The notes under the pieces: generated by a model | What the model saw: the letters and a program-made list of their open reading frames with translations, nothing else | Database searches by the model: none | Told to the model about the DNA's origin: nothing | Part shown: in pieces, positions 38,576-46,910 of the stretch | How positions within the stretch are numbered: the stretch's first letter is position 1 | How the letters are laid out: each line of letters opens with the position of its first letter | From: a virus | DNA: 49,898 nucleotides | Reading direction: 5' to 3' (one strand) | IMG/VR virus record: IMGVR_UViG_3300034012_002560 | Span: 1 to 49,898 of that record | Position numbers and translations under genes: made by a program

Positions 38576-39484
38576 TCACCAGTCCGCGACCAGCGCGGGC
38601 CTTTCCTCGGTTAGTGGTCGTCGCTTCCGCTCGATTGGCGCAATGAGTTCGCGCTGCACAAGCACATCAAAGAGTCTCGCGCGCGCCCGCCGCAGCACCT
38701 CTCGGACTACGCGGTCGGACACCCCGGCTGCAGATGCGATGGTGGGGACGGTCTGCCGCACGAGCTCGTGCTGGTTGCGCTTCTCCTCGCCAAGAGCTGC
38801 GCGCTTGGGAACTCGCACCCAAGTCCCAACGTGGAAGGCTCTCAGCCAGTCGAGTGCTCGCTCGTGAATCTCGCCGACGTTCGCTGCCCGGATGGCAGCA
38901 TCGCAGGTCAGCTCCAGGTGAATGGCGTCCACGCCTCGTGGCTCTCGTCCACCTGATCGAGTCGGACTGACGGGCAGAAATTCAACTCCGGCAGATCGCA
39001 GTCGCCTTCGCTCGGCAAGGTCTTCGTTGCGGTCCTCAGCAACTGCGAGCGACATCGATCCACCGCCAAGAATGGTCGAACAGCTGGCCCGGTCGAGAAA
39101 CTCAGCGAGCGATGCGAACGGGAACTTGCGGTTGCGCGCTCGGCCAACCACAGCGAGCTCTCCCATGCCAGAGAGGCGGCGCGCCTCGTCCCAGGCTGAT
39201 ACCGCCAGCCCTTGTGCAATCGCCTGCAGAACCTCGCTCTCCTCGAGCCTCGCAAGGTGAACGCAGAGCGCGCGCACCTCTCGGTCCAGAGAGGTCACAC
39301 GTCGAAGTGTTCGACCAATGGCCTCGTCCAGCGCAGCGTCAGCTTGCTCCTTCCAGCGCTCAAAGTCGCCGGACCGATGAAAGCCATCCACCTCCAGGTT
39401 CTCCCACGACTGGGCTCCGCTTGGTCTTGCGGTGCCACGCCATGCACGATCGGCCAGCTCTTGATCCCACGGACGATTTGTCAA
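38576..39484 (-). CDS. Unknown protein downstream of terminase, C-terminal HTH
   Basis: 302 residues. TTG 39484 overlaps the terminase stop (TTGA) behind GGAGGTGGG, while upstream codons are antisense noise. The N-terminal half is helical and charged (VTSLDREVRALCVHLARLEESEVLQAIAQ), the middle is mixed (FASLAEFLDRASCSTI, DLAERRRLRSAGVEFLPVS, DAIHLELTCDAAI), and the C-terminus has HELVRQTVPTIASAAGVSDRVVREVLRRARARLF, a sigma/winged HTH-like segment. I do not recognise the family; a regulator of late genes is conceivable. Confidence 0.65.
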   Translation of the reverse strand: MTNRPWDQELADRAWRGTARPSGAQSWENLEVDGFHRSGDFERWKEQADAALDEAIGRTLRRVTSLDREVRALCVHLARLEESEVLQAIAQGLAVSAWDEARRLSGMGELAVVGRARNRKFPFASLAEFLDRASCSTILGGGSMSLAVAEDRNEDLAERRRLRSAGVEFLPVSPTRSGGREPRGVDAIHLELTCDAAIRAANVGEIHERALDWLRAFHVGTWVRVPKRAALGEEKRNQHELVRQTVPTIASAAGVSDRVVREVLRRARARLFDVLVQRELIAPIERKRRPLTEERPALVADW

Positions 39485-41163
39485 AACCCACCTCCAACAG
39501 CACGATCCCTCGGCGCTACCTGCGGTCTCGGTCGGTTGGCCAAGTTCCGAGGCTCGGTCATCTCCACACGAGCAGACGTAAGAACGCAGGCCATCGCGAG
39601 GTCGCCGTGCGACGCCCCGATCGTTGGCATGAGGATCTTCGTTCCGCCCCCAGGCACGGGCTTCGACGTCACGCGCGAGAGCTGCATAATCAGCCGCGGA
39701 TCGTCTGGCAGCTCCAGCCACCCCTCGCTCATCATGCGACGCACGAGCGTGAACTGCGTCTCGGTCCATTCGGTGGTTGTGGCTATGCCGACGTATTGCA
39801 CCGCCCGCTCTCGCCCCTGCCAGTCGCGTCCCTTCGTCTTCGGGAACTCCTCGAGGGCGGTCGCAAGCGCGTGGATGTCCCCAAGGAAGCTCCAGGCCTG
39901 GTACTCGGCACACTTGCGCGCGAATCCGCTGCACACCTCGCTCGGCTTGAGCGGACTGCCACGCTCGGGCTTCACCTCCTCGAGATAGGCGAGCACCACT
40001 CTGCGCCCCTCCTTCGCTTCGTCTGGAGTCGCCCGACGAGCGATGCCCATAGCGCTGCTGTTCCGGACGAACCCAAGGTCTCCTGCGGCCCAGTGCTCGA
40101 AGTTCTGCATGGGCGCCTTCGTTCGCTCGCGATTCCGGTTGACCGCCTTGGCGAGCACTTCAGGCGAGAAGAAGATCTTGCTGCCGGCGGGATACGGGAT
40201 GGCGTCGATCTCGCGCGCCGCGTTGTCCGGATCGGTGGCGCGCATGTGGCGCTCGATCGTGCGGTCTGGATCCCACGTCGGGTTCAGGTCACGAGTCGGA
40301 GCTTGGCAGATGAGCGCCTCTGCGTGGATGCCCCAATCGCGAGCGATCTCTCCCTCCATCCGCCCGTAGCCGGCGATGAAGGGCGTGCTGAACATGAAGA
40401 GCTGCGCACCTGGAACGATGCGCTGGATGGCCGCCTGGAAGAGGGCGTTGTCGTTGGCGACCTTGTCGTCCTCGGCTTGGAAAAAACAGGCCTCGTCGAA
40501 ACCGCAGAACACCAACGTCTTGCCGCGCGCCCACTTGCCGCCAGCGCTCGCTACGCCGACTCGGATATCCACGAGCTTCCCATCATGCGGACGCCGGACG
40601 GTTATGACCTCCGTGGTTCCCACTCGCTCCGTCTCACCCTTGCGAGCGCGGTACTTGTTGACCACACAAGCCAACAGCCGAGGGTTCGCCTCGAAGTACC
40701 CACGCACAAACGAAAGCGCCTGCGCCGCTAGCGTCTTGTCAGGCGCAACGATGAGCGACCAGGCATGCTCTCCACGAGCCAACGTCGGCAGCGGCACGGT
40801 GAAGGACGCATGAATTGACTTTCCGGCGAGGAGTCGCGACGTCTTGCCCGCGCGACCGCCTGCACGGCACACCACGACGCGCCGCGGTTCGGGCGGTAGC
40901 GAGTCGCGGTCACATCCGAAGTGCTTCTGGCACTCATCATCGGATAGGTGTGGAGACCGGCCCTCTGAAGCATCCGCAATCCCAGCCATGAGCGGCGAGA
41001 GGCGAAGCGGGCCCCCGGAGTCGAACAGTTCCGTCGACATGAACTGCGCGAGCGGCACGTCGAACGGGTTGTTTGGCTTCCTCGGTCCGCCTCCCCTGAG
41101 CATGCGCAAGCGGGCGTTGGCACGCGACACGAGCAACGGGTCAAGGGTTCGAGCCGCGCTCAT
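39481..41163 (-). CDS. Terminase large subunit
   Basis: Packages DNA into the prohead using ATP. 560 residues. Walker A is GGRAGKTS at about 102-109, Walker B TLVFCGFDEA at about 216-225, coupling region FMFSTPF near 256. The C-terminal RNase H-like nuclease starts with GDLG (Asp362) and includes GASHGDLAMA near the end. Start overlaps the small terminase stop (ATGA). The Mu-like portal supports a gp28-type terminase, but the sequence does not tell headful from cos packaging. Confidence 0.9.
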   Translation of the reverse strand: MSAARTLDPLLVSRANARLRMLRGGGPRKPNNPFDVPLAQFMSTELFDSGGPLRLSPLMAGIADASEGRSPHLSDDECQKHFGCDRDSLPPEPRRVVVCRAGGRAGKTSRLLAGKSIHASFTVPLPTLARGEHAWSLIVAPDKTLAAQALSFVRGYFEANPRLLACVVNKYRARKGETERVGTTEVITVRRPHDGKLVDIRVGVASAGGKWARGKTLVFCGFDEACFFQAEDDKVANDNALFQAAIQRIVPGAQLFMFSTPFIAGYGRMEGEIARDWGIHAEALICQAPTRDLNPTWDPDRTIERHMRATDPDNAAREIDAIPYPAGSKIFFSPEVLAKAVNRNRERTKAPMQNFEHWAAGDLGFVRNSSAMGIARRATPDEAKEGRRVVLAYLEEVKPERGSPLKPSEVCSGFARKCAEYQAWSFLGDIHALATALEEFPKTKGRDWQGRERAVQYVGIATTTEWTETQFTLVRRMMSEGWLELPDDPRLIMQLSRVTSKPVPGGGTKILMPTIGASHGDLAMACVLTSARVEMTEPRNLANRPRPQVAPRDRAVGGGF

Positions 41164-41772: not shown

Positions 41773-42525
41773 TCACGAGGCCACCCCCGCCAAACCGAAC
41801 TGAACCGGGCCAAAAGCCGTGATGACTCGGTTTCGCTCACACAGCCTGCGCTTCGTGGCGTCGCCATATCGAGCCGCTAGCCCCGCCTCAGTGAGCCCGC
41901 TGGTCGGAAGGGTCGTGAGACCCGCGTTGTAGCGAGCTTGCATGAGTGTCGAGACGACGGGCGCAACACCGGCGCGCGGTTCGTGTTCAAACCCAATCTC
42001 GTCGAGGATGAGCAGGGTGGCCTTGAGCGCCGATCTCATCAGCGGGCCGTCATCGGTTGCCGACAGCGGCAATCGGTCGCGCTCAAGCTGCAGTTCCGGG
42101 GCGGAGACGAACCGGATTCCCGCAGCAATCTTCACCTCGGCGGCGCTCTTCGCGATGCTGAGACGGTGTCGAGCGAGCGCCACAACGAGCGTGGTCTTCC
42201 CCGCTCCAGTCGACCCGAGCAGGGTTAGCCCCTCGCCCGAAGATGCGCTCCACGGAGTTGGCTGGTTGATGCCGGCGAGCAAGCGATGGTCCACCGACCA
42301 ACGAAGCGAGGGACCAAGCACCGCGTGAGGCATCGCTGGGAGCGACCGCAGAGCCTTGCCCAGCACGATCTCGCGCATGGACTCCGCGTCCACCACAGCG
42401 CAGTCGTGGCAGAGCTCCAGACGCTCAGGGACGACCTCACCGCATCGGCAGCGGAACACCAGCTCGCCATCCAGCTCGACCATGTTTGCGCTCAAACGTC
42501 GAATTTCGGCCAGACTTAGCAACAT
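41773..42525 (-). CDS. DnaC-like helicase loader ATPase
   Basis: 250 residues. N-terminal Cys pairs CRCGE and CHDC (about 26-42) form a probable zinc knuckle; AAA+ part has Walker A GSTGAGKTT at about 103-111 and Walker B LLILDEIG at about 171-178, then MQARYNAGLTTLPTSGLTEAGLAARYG with sensor/Arg-finger-like KRRLCERN. Loads the host DnaB helicase at the phage origin. Start ATG 42525 overlaps the replication protein stop (TGATG), behind CAGGTG. Confidence 0.85.
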   Translation of the reverse strand: MLLSLAEIRRLSANMVELDGELVFRCRCGEVVPERLELCHDCAVVDAESMREIVLGKALRSLPAMPHAVLGPSLRWSVDHRLLAGINQPTPWSASSGEGLTLLGSTGAGKTTLVVALARHRLSIAKSAAEVKIAAGIRFVSAPELQLERDRLPLSATDDGPLMRSALKATLLILDEIGFEHEPRAGVAPVVSTLMQARYNAGLTTLPTSGLTEAGLAARYGDATKRRLCERNRVITAFGPVQFGLAGVAS

Positions 42526-43520
42526 CAAAACACCTGCCCATGTTCGTCGGGGACGAGCCCCAGTTCCCGCTGCTTTCGCGCGTTCTCCGCGATGAACTCC
42601 GCGCGCTTTCGTTCCTCGGTCGGCTGGTACTCAGGGCTCCGCTGGACGGGACGCGACCCACGGGGCGGAAGGGGCGCTGACGGTCCTCGCCCAAACTCAG
42701 CAGCCTTCGCCCTCCACGTTCGCCAAGCCGCACTCCAGTCGACGAACCGCGAGTCTTTTGCGGCGTGCCAGTCGAGGAACTTCTGAACTTCGGAGCCCCA
42801 GGTCGGGTCCTGGGTTTGGGGGATTCCCCAACCGTGGAGCCAGTCAGCGACGATGCCGTCGGCGGGCTGCCGAGTCGCTGGTCGCTTCCGGTCAGGCTTG
42901 TGAGCCTTCGGTTCCCCCTCTGGGGTGGGAGCCGCTTGCGGCGATGACTGGTCCGGGCCCAGCTCGGCCTCCGCGCGCTCTCTATCTTTGCTCTGCTCTG
43001 CTCTGCTCTGCTCAGAGTGACCGGCGGTGACAGCTGGTGACCGCGTGTGACTATCGGTCACGTTTTGTGACTGGCCGTCACGCTGCGTGACTAGATGTCC
43101 GGTTTCGTCACCAGGAGTCACAGCGCGTCCAGTTTCGTCACCGGATGTCACCGGGCGGGCGGAGCGGAGACGGTCAGCGGCGTCGCGTGACCGCTGCTCT
43201 TGCTTGCGAAGCTTGTCCGAGCTTCGGGCCTGCTGCGCCTCGACGTAGTTCGGCAGGGCTAGGCCTCCGTCTACCTCCACCACGCAGCCGTCAGCCAACA
43301 GCCCGTCTTCGCCTCGCAGGGCCAGCTCGACGACATCGGGAGGCATGCGGACCAGGAGCGCCAGACCGCGAGTACCAGCCTTGCCAACGGCCACGAAGCC
43401 GGACAGGTCGACCTTGCGAAGTAGCTCCCAAAGAAGAGCGCGGGCCTGCCACGAAAGCAGGCAAAGCTCGGTCGTGTCGCGCTTGTAGATGCGCACATAA
43501 GGTTCGTCCGGCCACCTCAT
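42525..43520 (-). CDS. Replication initiation protein (lambda O/DnaT-like), carries repeat array
   Basis: 331 residues. N-terminal ~105 residues form a winged-helix replication domain (RDTTELCLLSWQARALLWELLRK, GLALLVRMPPDVVELAL). A repetitive hydrophilic linker of ten-residue units (VTSGDETGRA, VTPGDETGHL) covers about 122-165; then Pro/Lys-rich linker; C-terminal DnaD/DnaT-like region ending WGSEVQKFLDWHAAKDSRFVDWSAAWRTWRAKA. Directly upstream of the helicase loader gene, as O before P in lambda. The linker's DNA is a 10-bp-period array, a candidate origin inside the gene. Confidence 0.8.
   Translation of the reverse strand: MRWPDEPYVRIYKRDTTELCLLSWQARALLWELLRKVDLSGFVAVGKAGTRGLALLVRMPPDVVELALRGEDGLLADGCVVEVDGGLALPNYVEAQQARSSDKLRKQEQRSRDAADRLRSARPVTSGDETGRAVTPGDETGHLVTQRDGQSQNVTDSHTRSPAVTAGHSEQSRAEQSKDRERAEAELGPDQSSPQAAPTPEGEPKAHKPDRKRPATRQPADGIVADWLHGWGIPQTQDPTWGSEVQKFLDWHAAKDSRFVDWSAAWRTWRAKAAEFGRGPSAPLPPRGSRPVQRSPEYQPTEERKRAEFIAENARKQRELGLVPDEHGQVF
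42991..43013. repeat. CTCTG pentanucleotide tract
   Basis: Four exact CTCTG units plus CTC, encoding EQSRAEQS in the replication protein linker. It abuts the GTSAC array and gives a purine/pyrimidine-asymmetric strand, which may help unwinding next to initiator sites. Could also be simple slippage in a tolerant linker. Confidence 0.6.
43017..43151. repeat. Array of 14 GT(G/C)AC units at exact 10-bp period, putative origin iterons
   Basis: GTGAC or GTCAC begins at 43017, 43027, 43037, 43047, 43057, 43067, 43077, 43087, 43107, 43117, 43137 and 43147; the units at 43097 and 43127 are GTCC. Each unit is on the same face of the helix. Located inside the replication protein gene, like lambda iterons inside O. 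The array's phase forces a ten-residue protein repeat. Confidence 0.85.
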
Positions 43521-44212
43521 GCGGCTGGCCCTACCGCGAGAGTGAGTTGAGGTGGGTTGCGCTTCAGCTCTTCGGCTTCGATGCGGGACAGCTCAAGATC
43601 GAACTCGGGCCAGAAGCGGGCCGGCAAGCGGTCCCAAGCTCCAGACAACGGCGCGCCGCATCGCTCGCGAAGGTTGTTCGAGATTTCCCGATGCTTGCTG
43701 CGCCACGACGGAGACAGCCGAGAGAGAGCGCGGATGCGAGCCTTGAGTTGTCGCGCTCGACGCGGTCCAATGGTCTCGGAGTTGGCCTGAGCCTGCAGCA
43801 GCATCGTCTGCATCACAGGAAGAAGTTCGTGCGCCACTGCTCTAACGATGGACGCGACGTCGTTCGCCTGAGGAGCGAGCCGACCGTCGACAGCGGCGAA
43901 GAAGACGTCCGTCACCTCGTCCTGGACACGATCGGCCGTTTCCGTCTCGGAGCGCATGCACACCTTGAGCACCTGCCGACGGTTGAGCAGGTACACGGTT
44001 GCCGGCCGGCCACCATTTTGCCGCACCGTGCGGCAAAGCTCGTTTTCATTGAACATTCTGGCTACTAGTTCACGAACGGCTCGTGGTCGCTCGAACCCTA
44101 GGCGTCGGCCCAACTCCTCGTCCTCGATGAGCGGTTCGCCATCAACGAAGACCACCGGCCAACCCCTGAAGGTCTCGGTCCTGTCGACCTTGACGATCTC
44201 GTTTCTATTCAT
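43517..44212 (-). CDS. Phage antirepressor/regulatory protein
   Basis: 231 residues. N-terminal domain EPLIEDEELGRRLGFERPRAV, LVARMFNENELCRTV, GGRPATVYLLNRRQVLKVCMRSETE is typical of phage antirepressor/ORF6N-Rha-type proteins (a BRO-like small beta-alpha fold). C-terminal part is helical with ISNNLRERCGAPLSGAWDRLPA, as in related phage proteins. May relieve repression or act in early regulation. Lies between the resolvase and replication genes with ATGA-type overlaps. Confidence 0.8.
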   Translation of the reverse strand: MNRNEIVKVDRTETFRGWPVVFVDGEPLIEDEELGRRLGFERPRAVRELVARMFNENELCRTVRQNGGRPATVYLLNRRQVLKVCMRSETETADRVQDEVTDVFFAAVDGRLAPQANDVASIVRAVAHELLPVMQTMLLQAQANSETIGPRRARQLKARIRALSRLSPSWRSKHREISNNLRERCGAPLSGAWDRLPARFWPEFDLELSRIEAEELKRNPPQLTLAVGPAA

Positions 44213-44769
44213 CGCTCCTCCGTACTGAGCGCCCGCCTACCCTCGAGGGTGCGAGCCCAAATCAAGCCATGGCGCGCCAGGCCAATCGCATCGCGCTCGT
44301 GCGCGTTCGACCGTCCCAACGAGGGATAGAGACCGCGAATCGCTCTAGCGATCACAGCGTCCGATGGTGAAGACACGCCAACCAAGCCACGCCTCCACAC
44401 GGCAGCGGGAACCTCAAGCACGGTCTCGCAGAGAGGACGCAGCGCCGCGCGAATCTCCACTGCGCACTCCGTGGAGTGGACAAGTGCGCTCGCCATCTTT
44501 GAGCTGATGCCCTTCACGTTCTTGCGCTGGACTGGGAACACCTTCTCGACGCGCTCCACCACGCCGATGGCCCAGGGAGCCGGCGTTTTCTGGTCAAGAA
44601 ATGCGAACCAACCAGCAATGACGGAGTTCGCTTCAGCCCAGCCGCGAACCGATGCCTTCTCGACAAAGCTGACGCTGCGCGAGCGGACGCCACTTGGTGA
44701 CGAATGCCTCATCAGCGCTAGCCCAACCGTCGATCCTGGGTCGACTCCGATACACCAGTAGTCTCTCAT
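44209..44769 (-). CDS. RuvC-like Holliday junction resolvase
   Basis: 186 residues, RNase H fold. Catalytic acids visible: Asp10 in IGVDPGSTVG, Glu72 in VVERVE, and Asp in HERDAIGLARHG near residue 160. Resolves branched replication and recombination intermediates before packaging. Start overlaps the upstream stop (ATGA). Confidence 0.8.
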   Translation of the reverse strand: MRDYWCIGVDPGSTVGLALMRHSSPSGVRSRSVSFVEKASVRGWAEANSVIAGWFAFLDQKTPAPWAIGVVERVEKVFPVQRKNVKGISSKMASALVHSTECAVEIRAALRPLCETVLEVPAAVWRRGLVGVSSPSDAVIARAIRGLYPSLGRSNAHERDAIGLARHGLIWARTLEGRRALSTEER

Positions 44770-45059: not shown

Positions 45060-45313
45060 GTCACCACCGCGTTGATTCGCTCGGCAAACTTCCTCAGCGC
45101 CGCCTCTTCGAGGTCGCGAACGCGAGGCTGGCTAATGCCAAGTGCGAGCGCGGATTCCTGCAGAGTGAATCCGTTGTTTCGCTCAGCGATAGCCATGAGC
45201 AGAACCCCGCAATGGTGGGCTCCGTTCATTACCAACTCGCGGCAATCCCCACAGCGAAGCGCCGAGAAGAGCGCGCCGGAACGAGCGCACGGGACCACGC
45301 CGCGCGCAGTCAT
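45056..45313 (-). CDS. Sigma-70 region 4-like HTH protein
   Basis: 85 residues. N-terminal Cys (VVPCARSG, CGDCREL, HHC) could bind zinc; C-terminal GFTLQESALALGISQPRVRDLEEAALRKF is the sigma region 4 type HTH that contacts -35 elements. Might direct host polymerase to late or early phage promoters, but small HTH proteins of this kind can also be simple regulators. Confidence 0.65.
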   Translation of the reverse strand: MTARGVVPCARSGALFSALRCGDCRELVMNGAHHCGVLLMAIAERNNGFTLQESALALGISQPRVRDLEEAALRKFAERINAVVT

Positions 45314-46032
45314 AGAGCCACCAATCGCTTGCTAGCGAGGTCGACAGCATTGCCACTAATGTCGAATCCGAGGAACCGACGGCCATTCAGAAGGGCAGCT
45401 TCACCGGTGGAACCGGACCCCGAGAACGGGTCCAGAACGATGTCGCCATCCACCGAGCTTTGACGAATGAGCGTTTGGAGCAAGCTTGGAGGCTTCTCTG
45501 TTGGGTACCCATCACGGACCGGCTCGAAGTTCAGGACGTCGGGAATGCCGAGGTCATGCAGCTTGCGCTTGCCCTTCTCAAAGAAGAGGACGAGCTCATA
45601 CCTGGCTCTATAGTGGTATCCCAAGCCAATCCGGCCCTTGTCCCAGATGAGCGGCTTCCAGAATGTGAAGCCAGCTCGCTCGCCCATCGGCTTGATGGCG
45701 AACATGGTCTCCTGGTCGCAAAGCACGTAGCAGTGCGAGTTCGGTCTGAGGACGCGGAACAGCTCGCGGAACAGCTCAGGGAATCGAGCGTTCGGGAAGA
45801 TCGGAAACCAGTCGTTGCTGGAAGACTTCGAGTGCGCGAGCCTCGTTGTTGTGCCCTTCGCCCGATGCTTCTCGAGCGATTCGTAGGCGGGGTCAGTGAC
45901 AACGAGGCCCACACTCTCAGGAGGGAGCCGACGGAGCGCTTCAACCGCATCAGCGCGTTCGACAGCCCACCGGACGCCTGGACGTAGCGCGTCGACAGTC
46001 AGCATCGTTTGTTGCGATCCGTCGGCAGCCAT
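45310..46032 (-). CDS. Beta-class DNA methyltransferase (N6-adenine or N4-cytosine)
   Basis: 240 residues. ATG 46032 is chosen over GTG 46038 because GGGGAG lies eight bases upstream of it. Catalytic motif IV DPAY at 47-50 comes first and the SAM-binding motif I DPFSGSGS at 201-208 last, the beta-class order. FWKPLIWDKG and YRARYELVLFFEKG lie between. DPAY instead of DPPY/SPPY fits several phage enzymes. Probably protects phage DNA; complements the C5 enzyme at 1958. Confidence 0.85.
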   Translation of the reverse strand: MAADGSQQTMLTVDALRPGVRWAVERADAVEALRRLPPESVGLVVTDPAYESLEKHRAKGTTTRLAHSKSSSNDWFPIFPNARFPELFRELFRVLRPNSHCYVLCDQETMFAIKPMGERAGFTFWKPLIWDKGRIGLGYHYRARYELVLFFEKGKRKLHDLGIPDVLNFEPVRDGYPTEKPPSLLQTLIRQSSVDGDIVLDPFSGSGSTGEAALLNGRRFLGFDISGNAVDLASKRLVAL

Positions 46033-46034
46033 GG

Positions 46035-46910
46035 TCACGGCTCCCCGAAGTAGACAGGGCAGATTTTAGCGGACTTGAGGGTCTTGCCGATGTCGCCGAT
46101 AGCGTCGCGCTTGACCGCAGAGAGGCGCCACGGCTCCAACGTCCACGACAGCACGCCTTCCTTGTGCCGATAGCGCAGGCGAACCGGCACCTGATAGAGA
46201 GTGCCATCGCGGAAGACGGGAAGGGTGAGCAGGAAGAGCCCAGGGACTTTAAGAGGTTTGCCTGCCTCGTCCTGATGCTCGGCCGAATATGCGATAGCGC
46301 CCTCGCCCGAGCCAAGGTTCGTAACCTGCGCAACCTTCGAGGCGACGCGGATCGATAGGCCGCGGGAAAGCTCCATGAGGCGCTGAGCCGAAGCAAACTC
46401 AGCGCCGACGAGGCCGGCGTACTTCTTTGAAGACTCGAGCGCATTCTCGCCATTGGTGACGTCAACGATTCGCGACTCAAGCAACTCAGCGAACTGCTGC
46501 ACGGACAAGGCCCGGCTGAAGGCACTGTTCCAGGCCTCCCACTCATCGGAGAACGGCAAGGAGTACTTGGCTCGGTGACGTTGCCAGTCAGGCGTATTGA
46601 TCGTTCCGTAGTCGTAGATCGCTACAACTTCGGTATCAGCGACGAAGATTGCACTGTTGATGTCGGTGGCAAACCGGCGCGCGTGGTCGATGAACGACTC
46701 AAGGGTCGTAGCCTCAAACGGACCTTCGTTGCCATGCAGCAGGGGCCTTTCCCGATAGGGAGCTAGCGCCGCCTCCAAAGGCAAGGCGCCTGCATTGGTA
46801 ACTAGGACCGGGAACGAGGCGCCGGTTCGAGGGTCGCTTACCATCTCGACGCGGCTCTGAACCGCAGCCTTGCGCGCCAATTCAGCGACAACTTCAGCTT
46901 CTGAACTCAT
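46035..46910 (-). CDS. DUF2303 (YfdQ-like) phage protein
   Basis: 291 residues. Pattern LESFIDHARRFATDINSAIFVAD, VVAIYDYGT, SDEWEAWNSAFSRALSVQQFAELLESRI, SSKKYAGLVGAEFASAQRLMELSRGLSI and VRLRYRHKEGVLSW matches the DUF2303 family found in early operons of many temperate phages. Function unknown, though the conserved link to recombination/replication genes suggests DNA metabolism. Start overlaps the gene before. Confidence 0.85.
   Translation of the reverse strand: MSSEAEVVAELARKAAVQSRVEMVSDPRTGASFPVLVTNAGALPLEAALAPYRERPLLHGNEGPFEATTLESFIDHARRFATDINSAIFVADTEVVAIYDYGTINTPDWQRHRAKYSLPFSDEWEAWNSAFSRALSVQQFAELLESRIVDVTNGENALESSKKYAGLVGAEFASAQRLMELSRGLSIRVASKVAQVTNLGSGEGAIAYSAEHQDEAGKPLKVPGLFLLTLPVFRDGTLYQVPVRLRYRHKEGVLSWTLEPWRLSAVKRDAIGDIGKTLKSAKICPVYFGEP

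Follow-up and report, generated by a model that had tools for sequence, protein, structure and literature searches.

The phage analysed here very probably starts its replication inside its own initiator gene, at a lambda-like origin made of helix-phased 5-bp half-sites; many related genes keep the phased row of words, and the word changes together with a handful of initiator residues, which is why we favour a replication start site. The window, i.e. the whole stretch of 49,898 nucleotides that was analysed (IMG/VR virus record IMGVR_UViG_3300034012_002560), carries on the minus strand, at 43017-43151, an array of 14 slots in 10-bp steps, with GTSAC at 43017 + 10k (k = 0-7, 9, 10, 12 and 13). 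Twelve of the 14 slots are exact and the remaining two are GTCC variants (GTCCG at 43097 and GTCCA at 43127); a recount returned the very slots that the initial annotation had described as an exact 10-bp array of twelve GTGAC/GTCAC units plus two GTCC variants. In the sense of the gene, with x for a variant slot, the order is GTGAC GTGAC x GTGAC GTGAC x GTCAC GTGAC GTCAC GTGAC GTCAC GTCAC GTCAC GTCAC. An alternating block of GTCAC-N5-GTGAC dyads (43057-43091, minus strand), the conserved upstream half of the layout described below, is followed by a tract-proximal block of four head-to-tail GTCAC (43017-43051, minus strand), and a lone in-register GTCAC (sense; GTGAC as displayed) lies four slots upstream of the array, at 43187-43191 on the same strand. 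The probability of 12 GTSAC out of 14 in one register by chance is about 1e-24 after correction for starts and periods, the phased maximum reached at most three in 40 Markov simulations, and GTSAC shows no enrichment window-wide (103 observed, 107 expected). The spacers of the array are diverse. GC skew across the window gave no origin signal, being uninformative as a marker.

The array is located some 330-500 nt into the initiator gene. This gene (42525-43520, minus strand), as defined by its ORF, profile match and model, encodes 331 amino acids arranged as a winged helix, a basic helix, a disordered linker and C-terminal helices; the protein matches PHROG 1032 'replication initiation protein' weakly (E 0.0018) and has no Pfam match. 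Its winged-helix domain (aa 17-97; 43230-43472, minus strand), delimited by the alignment and by an AlphaFold2 pLDDT mostly above 90, resembles phage replisome organizers in a Foldseek comparison with viral models, sequence and fold searches of the PDB retrieved only generic winged-helix proteins, and the N-terminal part led to no relatives in named phages. In the AlphaFold2 model a disordered linker (121-220) precedes the C-terminal helices, and the array-encoded residues (aa 124-168) fall within it. Directly downstream, with a 4-bp overlap, lies a DnaC/IstB-like helicase loader gene (41773-42528, minus strand; PHROG 50 'DnaC-like helicase loader', E 5.6e-11; Pfam IstB, E 4.5e-6). ORF, profile matches and model thus bear out the earlier placement of the array in the linker of a replication gene next to a helicase loader gene. 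Other neighbours (43517-44769, 45310-46038 and 39481-41163) include Bro-N/antirepressor-like, Holliday-junction-resolvase-like, DNA methyltransferase and terminase large subunit genes.

Relatives were gathered by the winged-helix domain only, thereby avoiding selection on DNA, and comprise class I, to which the window belongs (n = 43 loci), and class II (n = 53). At least four GTSAC stand in one register at 23 of the 43 class I loci; the other 20 have fewer than four, a few of them being truncated or using another word or spacing. Neighbouring units are exactly 10 bp apart in 142 of about 258 class I spacings, with 21 bp as the next commonest distance, so that the 10-bp period, whose conservation in related phages had been proposed as a check, is found at loci recovered by protein alone. 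Some class II loci have GTCAC and many have 10-bp repeats of GTAACGCC, GCAACGCC or GAAACGCC, followed by a purine tract such as CCTAGAGGAGAGGAGAG and read in two frames, and some class II genes are without a clear array. A third initiator family (L462-L476) uses the further words GTCGC, GTCCC, GTCAGC, GTTAGC and GTAAGC, and its tracts are 6-nt repeats, e.g. ATACAG or GTAGAT.

A survey of 2.9 million viral contigs, in which five exact phased GTSAC units were required, returned 98 stretches at period 10 before the spacer filter. Arrays with diverse spacers numbered 49 at period 10, 2 at period 9 and 6 at period 11, and the control pentamer GASTC yielded none at period 10 in the same contigs. Five of the six period-11 arrays (L202, L210, L214, L215 and L221) look like real initiator linkers and appear to be a sister form of the 10-bp array. 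Most arrays are found midway along genes for replication initiators, which belong to several families, with a short-repeat tract directly after the array; many of the 50 array ORFs scanned match PHROGs annotated as replication initiation, replisome organizer, primosomal, O-like or DnaD-like, and a loose Walker-A pattern occurs downstream in 33 of the 50. A layout of alternating GTCAC/GTGAC, then a GTCAC run, then the tract recurs in sense orientation, as in the window, at L004, L033, L049, L080, L089, L094, L371, L383, L385 and L405, and the final eight slots in the window (<><><<<<, where < is GTCAC and > is GTGAC) are identical to those of L089, L094 and L405. The orientation switch within the array is conserved among relatives, which fits the earlier suggestion that orientation may set polarity. 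What looks like an inserted GIY-YIG/T5orf172-MUG113-type domain separates the DNA-binding part from the linker in the initiators L028:1732-3231, L390, L391 and Mx8 p19 (L478:1249-2430); Pfam matches to such an insert were obtained for one of the 50 array ORFs, L390, L391 and Mx8 being recognised by eye.

The CTCTG tract noted earlier beside the array was confirmed, and it is a conserved partner of the array, not an incidental neighbour. Delimited by TRF and autocorrelation at 42980-43016 (minus strand; sense TCTGAGCAGAGCAGAGCAGAGCAGAG...), this candidate unwinding or single-strand element contains five perfect TGCTC copies (42989-43013, TRF) directly downstream of the array in gene sense, and is purine-rich and not clearly A+T-rich. 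Tract autocorrelation at lags 5, 10 and 15 exceeds the synonymous null in all three sets, and the units are usually of 5 nt (6 nt in one family). In bacterial oriC, with DnaA boxes and DnaA-trios, and at the DnaD recognition element, double-strand sites abut a short-period single-strand element (PMC10201434). The phage tract differs from DnaA-trios in its period of 5 (6 in one family) instead of 3 and in an initiator other than DnaA; a DnaA-trio element, with its 3-nt repeats, was rejected on the autocorrelation, which in class I and the pattern set has peaks at 5, 10 and 15 but none at 3.

The predicted reader of the words is the basic helix of aa 102-120 (D102, R105, K106, Q109 and R110; 43161-43217, minus strand), as suggested by the model, in which it is continuous, and by co-variation. 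R105 and R110 are invariant in 25 homologs. Among about 105 class II columns, mutual information with the word is highest at 106 (z 15.2), 109 (10.7) and 102 (10.7), three positions that share one face with R105 and R110 on an ideal helix. In this class K106 accompanies GTCAC (14/14), V106 the NAAC words GTAAC/GAAAC (16/16), S106 GCAAC (4/4), T106 GTGAC (3/3) and A106 CGAAC (2/2). The word changed repeatedly on the class II tree, and about five of five independent pairs on well-supported branches agree with none opposed, the resulting p of 0.0625 being the floor of the test. T106 with GTGAC and M106 with GTWAC were seen again in class I; in the third family, inspected after the word/residue rule had been written down, RKxxQR goes with GTCAC (3/3, including one query) and RVxxHR with GTAAC (2/2). 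Agreement between classes is not fully independent, since the classes may be remote homologs. The window protein has K106/Q109, the pair that accompanies GTCAC. The orientation that goes with T106 has two exceptions, L036 and L069, which combine T106/W109 with sense-strand GTCAC. Residue and word thus co-vary, and we infer that the words are read by the basic helix C-terminal to the winged helix, with 102, 106 and 109 setting the word.

Basic regions of eukaryotic bZIP proteins presumably provide a parallel, having variable helix positions 0, 4 and 7 and an arginine at 8 as in the phage helix, a likeness of position matching only; the half-sites of GCN4, C/EBP and Pap1, which we take to resemble the words GTCA, GCAA and GTAA, are a lead only. 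The phage helix differs from that of bZIP in having arginine, not alanine, at position 3, in the lack of a leucine zipper and in the attached winged helix. A bZIP domain proper (NxxAAxxSR plus leucine zipper) was rejected: the arginine at position 3 is invariant, and the helix stops at residue 120, beyond which lies the disordered linker.

E. coli prophages encode a distant, class II-like homolog ('phage replisome organizer'), with five linker GTCAC in 10/11-bp steps, and 2055 of the 5426 complete E. coli genomes (~38%) match this prophage region. Every linker GTCAC is kept in the nine copies compared, spacers and tract copy number being variable, and the 11-bp step changes place between variants with all linker GTCAC retained. 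E. coli prophage replisome organizers (L477:1616-1652 and L480-L487) also bear a second phased GTCAC set in the part coding for the winged helix, this upstream set having four or six phased units. The K-12 Rac gene ydaU (YdaU, DUF1376) contains no GTSAC. The named phages to which the class II queries led were Cyanophage Cy-LDV1, with an S106-type motif and GCAAC words in agreement with the code, and two phages of Microcystis, one of which (Mwe-JY25) is without an evident array. Mx8 p19 is devoid of GTSAC and has GTCC/GGAC words and a GGAGAT repeat beside a DnaC-like gene, which is no more than suggestive.

The initial annotation had contrasted the ~18-bp repeats of lambda with a one-turn array, a contrast that proved overstated. 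In the lambda record each 18-bp iteron consists of a CCCTC-like half-site, 5 nt and a GAGGG-like half-site, the two 5-bp half-sites being 10 bp apart; the window array therefore repeats the lambda half-site geometry at almost every turn, using a different word. The lambda origin binds O dimers and opens the adjoining A+T-rich region (PMC5043065), and a helicase-recruiting gene lies next to the initiator gene that bears it (PMC5043065, PMC7466680). Both systems have an array in the initiator gene (gene O in lambda, site of the O-some), half-sites in a 5-N5-5 arrangement and a purine-rich tract directly downstream; as in lambda, the repeats of the window lie between the DNA-binding and C-terminal parts of the initiator, and the gene directly downstream (DnaC/IstB-like, 4-bp overlap) is a helicase-loading one. 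Lambda has four separate dyads, 20-24 bp apart, and then a purine-rich, A+T-rich tract, whereas the window has single half-sites at nearly every turn, its GTCAC-N5-GTGAC dyads being mixed with many head-to-tail half-sites, a tract of 5-nt repeats and, as predicted reader, a basic helix C-terminal to the winged helix. An iteron plasmid origin (direct repeats of ~17-22 bp bound by a Rep monomer) was rejected on the unit, here 5 bp in a 10-bp step. Replisome organizers of the Phage_rep_org_N, DUF1376 and related types share the predicted winged-helix fold of the window protein with weak sequence similarity. A search of open-access papers found no account of these arrays.

An autoregulatory operator, at which binding of the initiator to the array would repress the initiator's operon or set its pace, the array having no role as an origin, would yield the same binding and co-variation data. 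We consider it unlikely, however, since the array is hundreds of nucleotides into the gene (~330-500 nt) and not at a promoter, adjoins a conserved tract of short repeats for which an operator has no need, and matches the location of the lambda origin. Short helix-phased repeats nucleate protein filaments in the ParR/parC and TubR systems, and a centromere-like or partition site could be phased in the same way; it is nonetheless highly improbable here, the partner genes being a helicase loader or helicase, with no ParM, ParA or TubZ among the neighbours examined. Selection on a ten-residue protein repeat, of which the DNA array would be a mere echo, deserves hardly more than a trace of credence. 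Three GTCACN5 units do translate as VTxxHxxSxx, and those residues recur; but 10 is not a multiple of three, so that successive units fall in three frames, the last array unit occupies all three across relatives, and the moving 11-bp step alters the frame. Moreover, synonymous-codon permutation of the window gene left a mean of 5.4 phased units and a maximum of 9, as against 12 observed (0/300), other words encode other residues with the 10-bp step unchanged, and the linker is predicted to be disordered (AlphaFold2). Homologs keeping the protein repeat with GTSAC scrambled by synonymous codons had been named as what would speak against an origin; no relatives were seen that keep VTxxHxxSxx with scrambled codons, and loss of the array in shuffles together with the use of three frames points the opposite way. 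The array is, as judged from these comparisons, under selection as a DNA-level element rather than an echo of a protein repeat. A minisatellite or functionless chance repeat was rejected with near certainty: a scan of genome contigs did retrieve mostly near-identical tandem repeats (excluded from host-range use), but spacers are diverse in the window and vary between relatives with the words constant, the layout is common to several families, and the Markov simulations and the period, pentamer and synonymous controls contradict it.

The initial annotation had read the array as an origin with dense initiator sites, and this reading is well backed by the DNA-level constraint, the conservation in several initiator families and the word/residue co-variation, all of them comparative lines of support. 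At such an origin, initiator protomers would occupy one 5-bp half-site after another, at intervals of one helical turn, via the basic helix, with R105 and R110 as fixed contacts and 102, 106 and 109 choosing the word. GTCAC-N5-GTGAC pairs may serve as dyads for initiator dimers, and on the head-to-tail GTCAC run beside the tract a cooperative, one-sided assembly would form, whose strain could open the adjoining short-repeat tract. The C-terminal domain and the DnaC-like loader would then place the replicative helicase at the opened tract, and the array may give the process its polarity. It is tempting to speculate, tentatively, that several phage initiator families read their origins through a bZIP-like basic helix with a simple three-residue code, one protomer being stacked per turn, and that their 5-/6-nt tract works as a strand-specific unwinding ladder like DnaA-trios; the sequence would then predict origins and their specificity in many phages.

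Replication origins are known for a few phages only. If the origin reading is true, sequence would reveal an origin in many phages that are still uncharacterised, as well as in the prophage gene present in ~38% of complete E. coli genomes, and a short residue code would tie each initiator to its origin word. The arrays would also offer a compact system in which to study the phased assembly of initiators and the opening of DNA.
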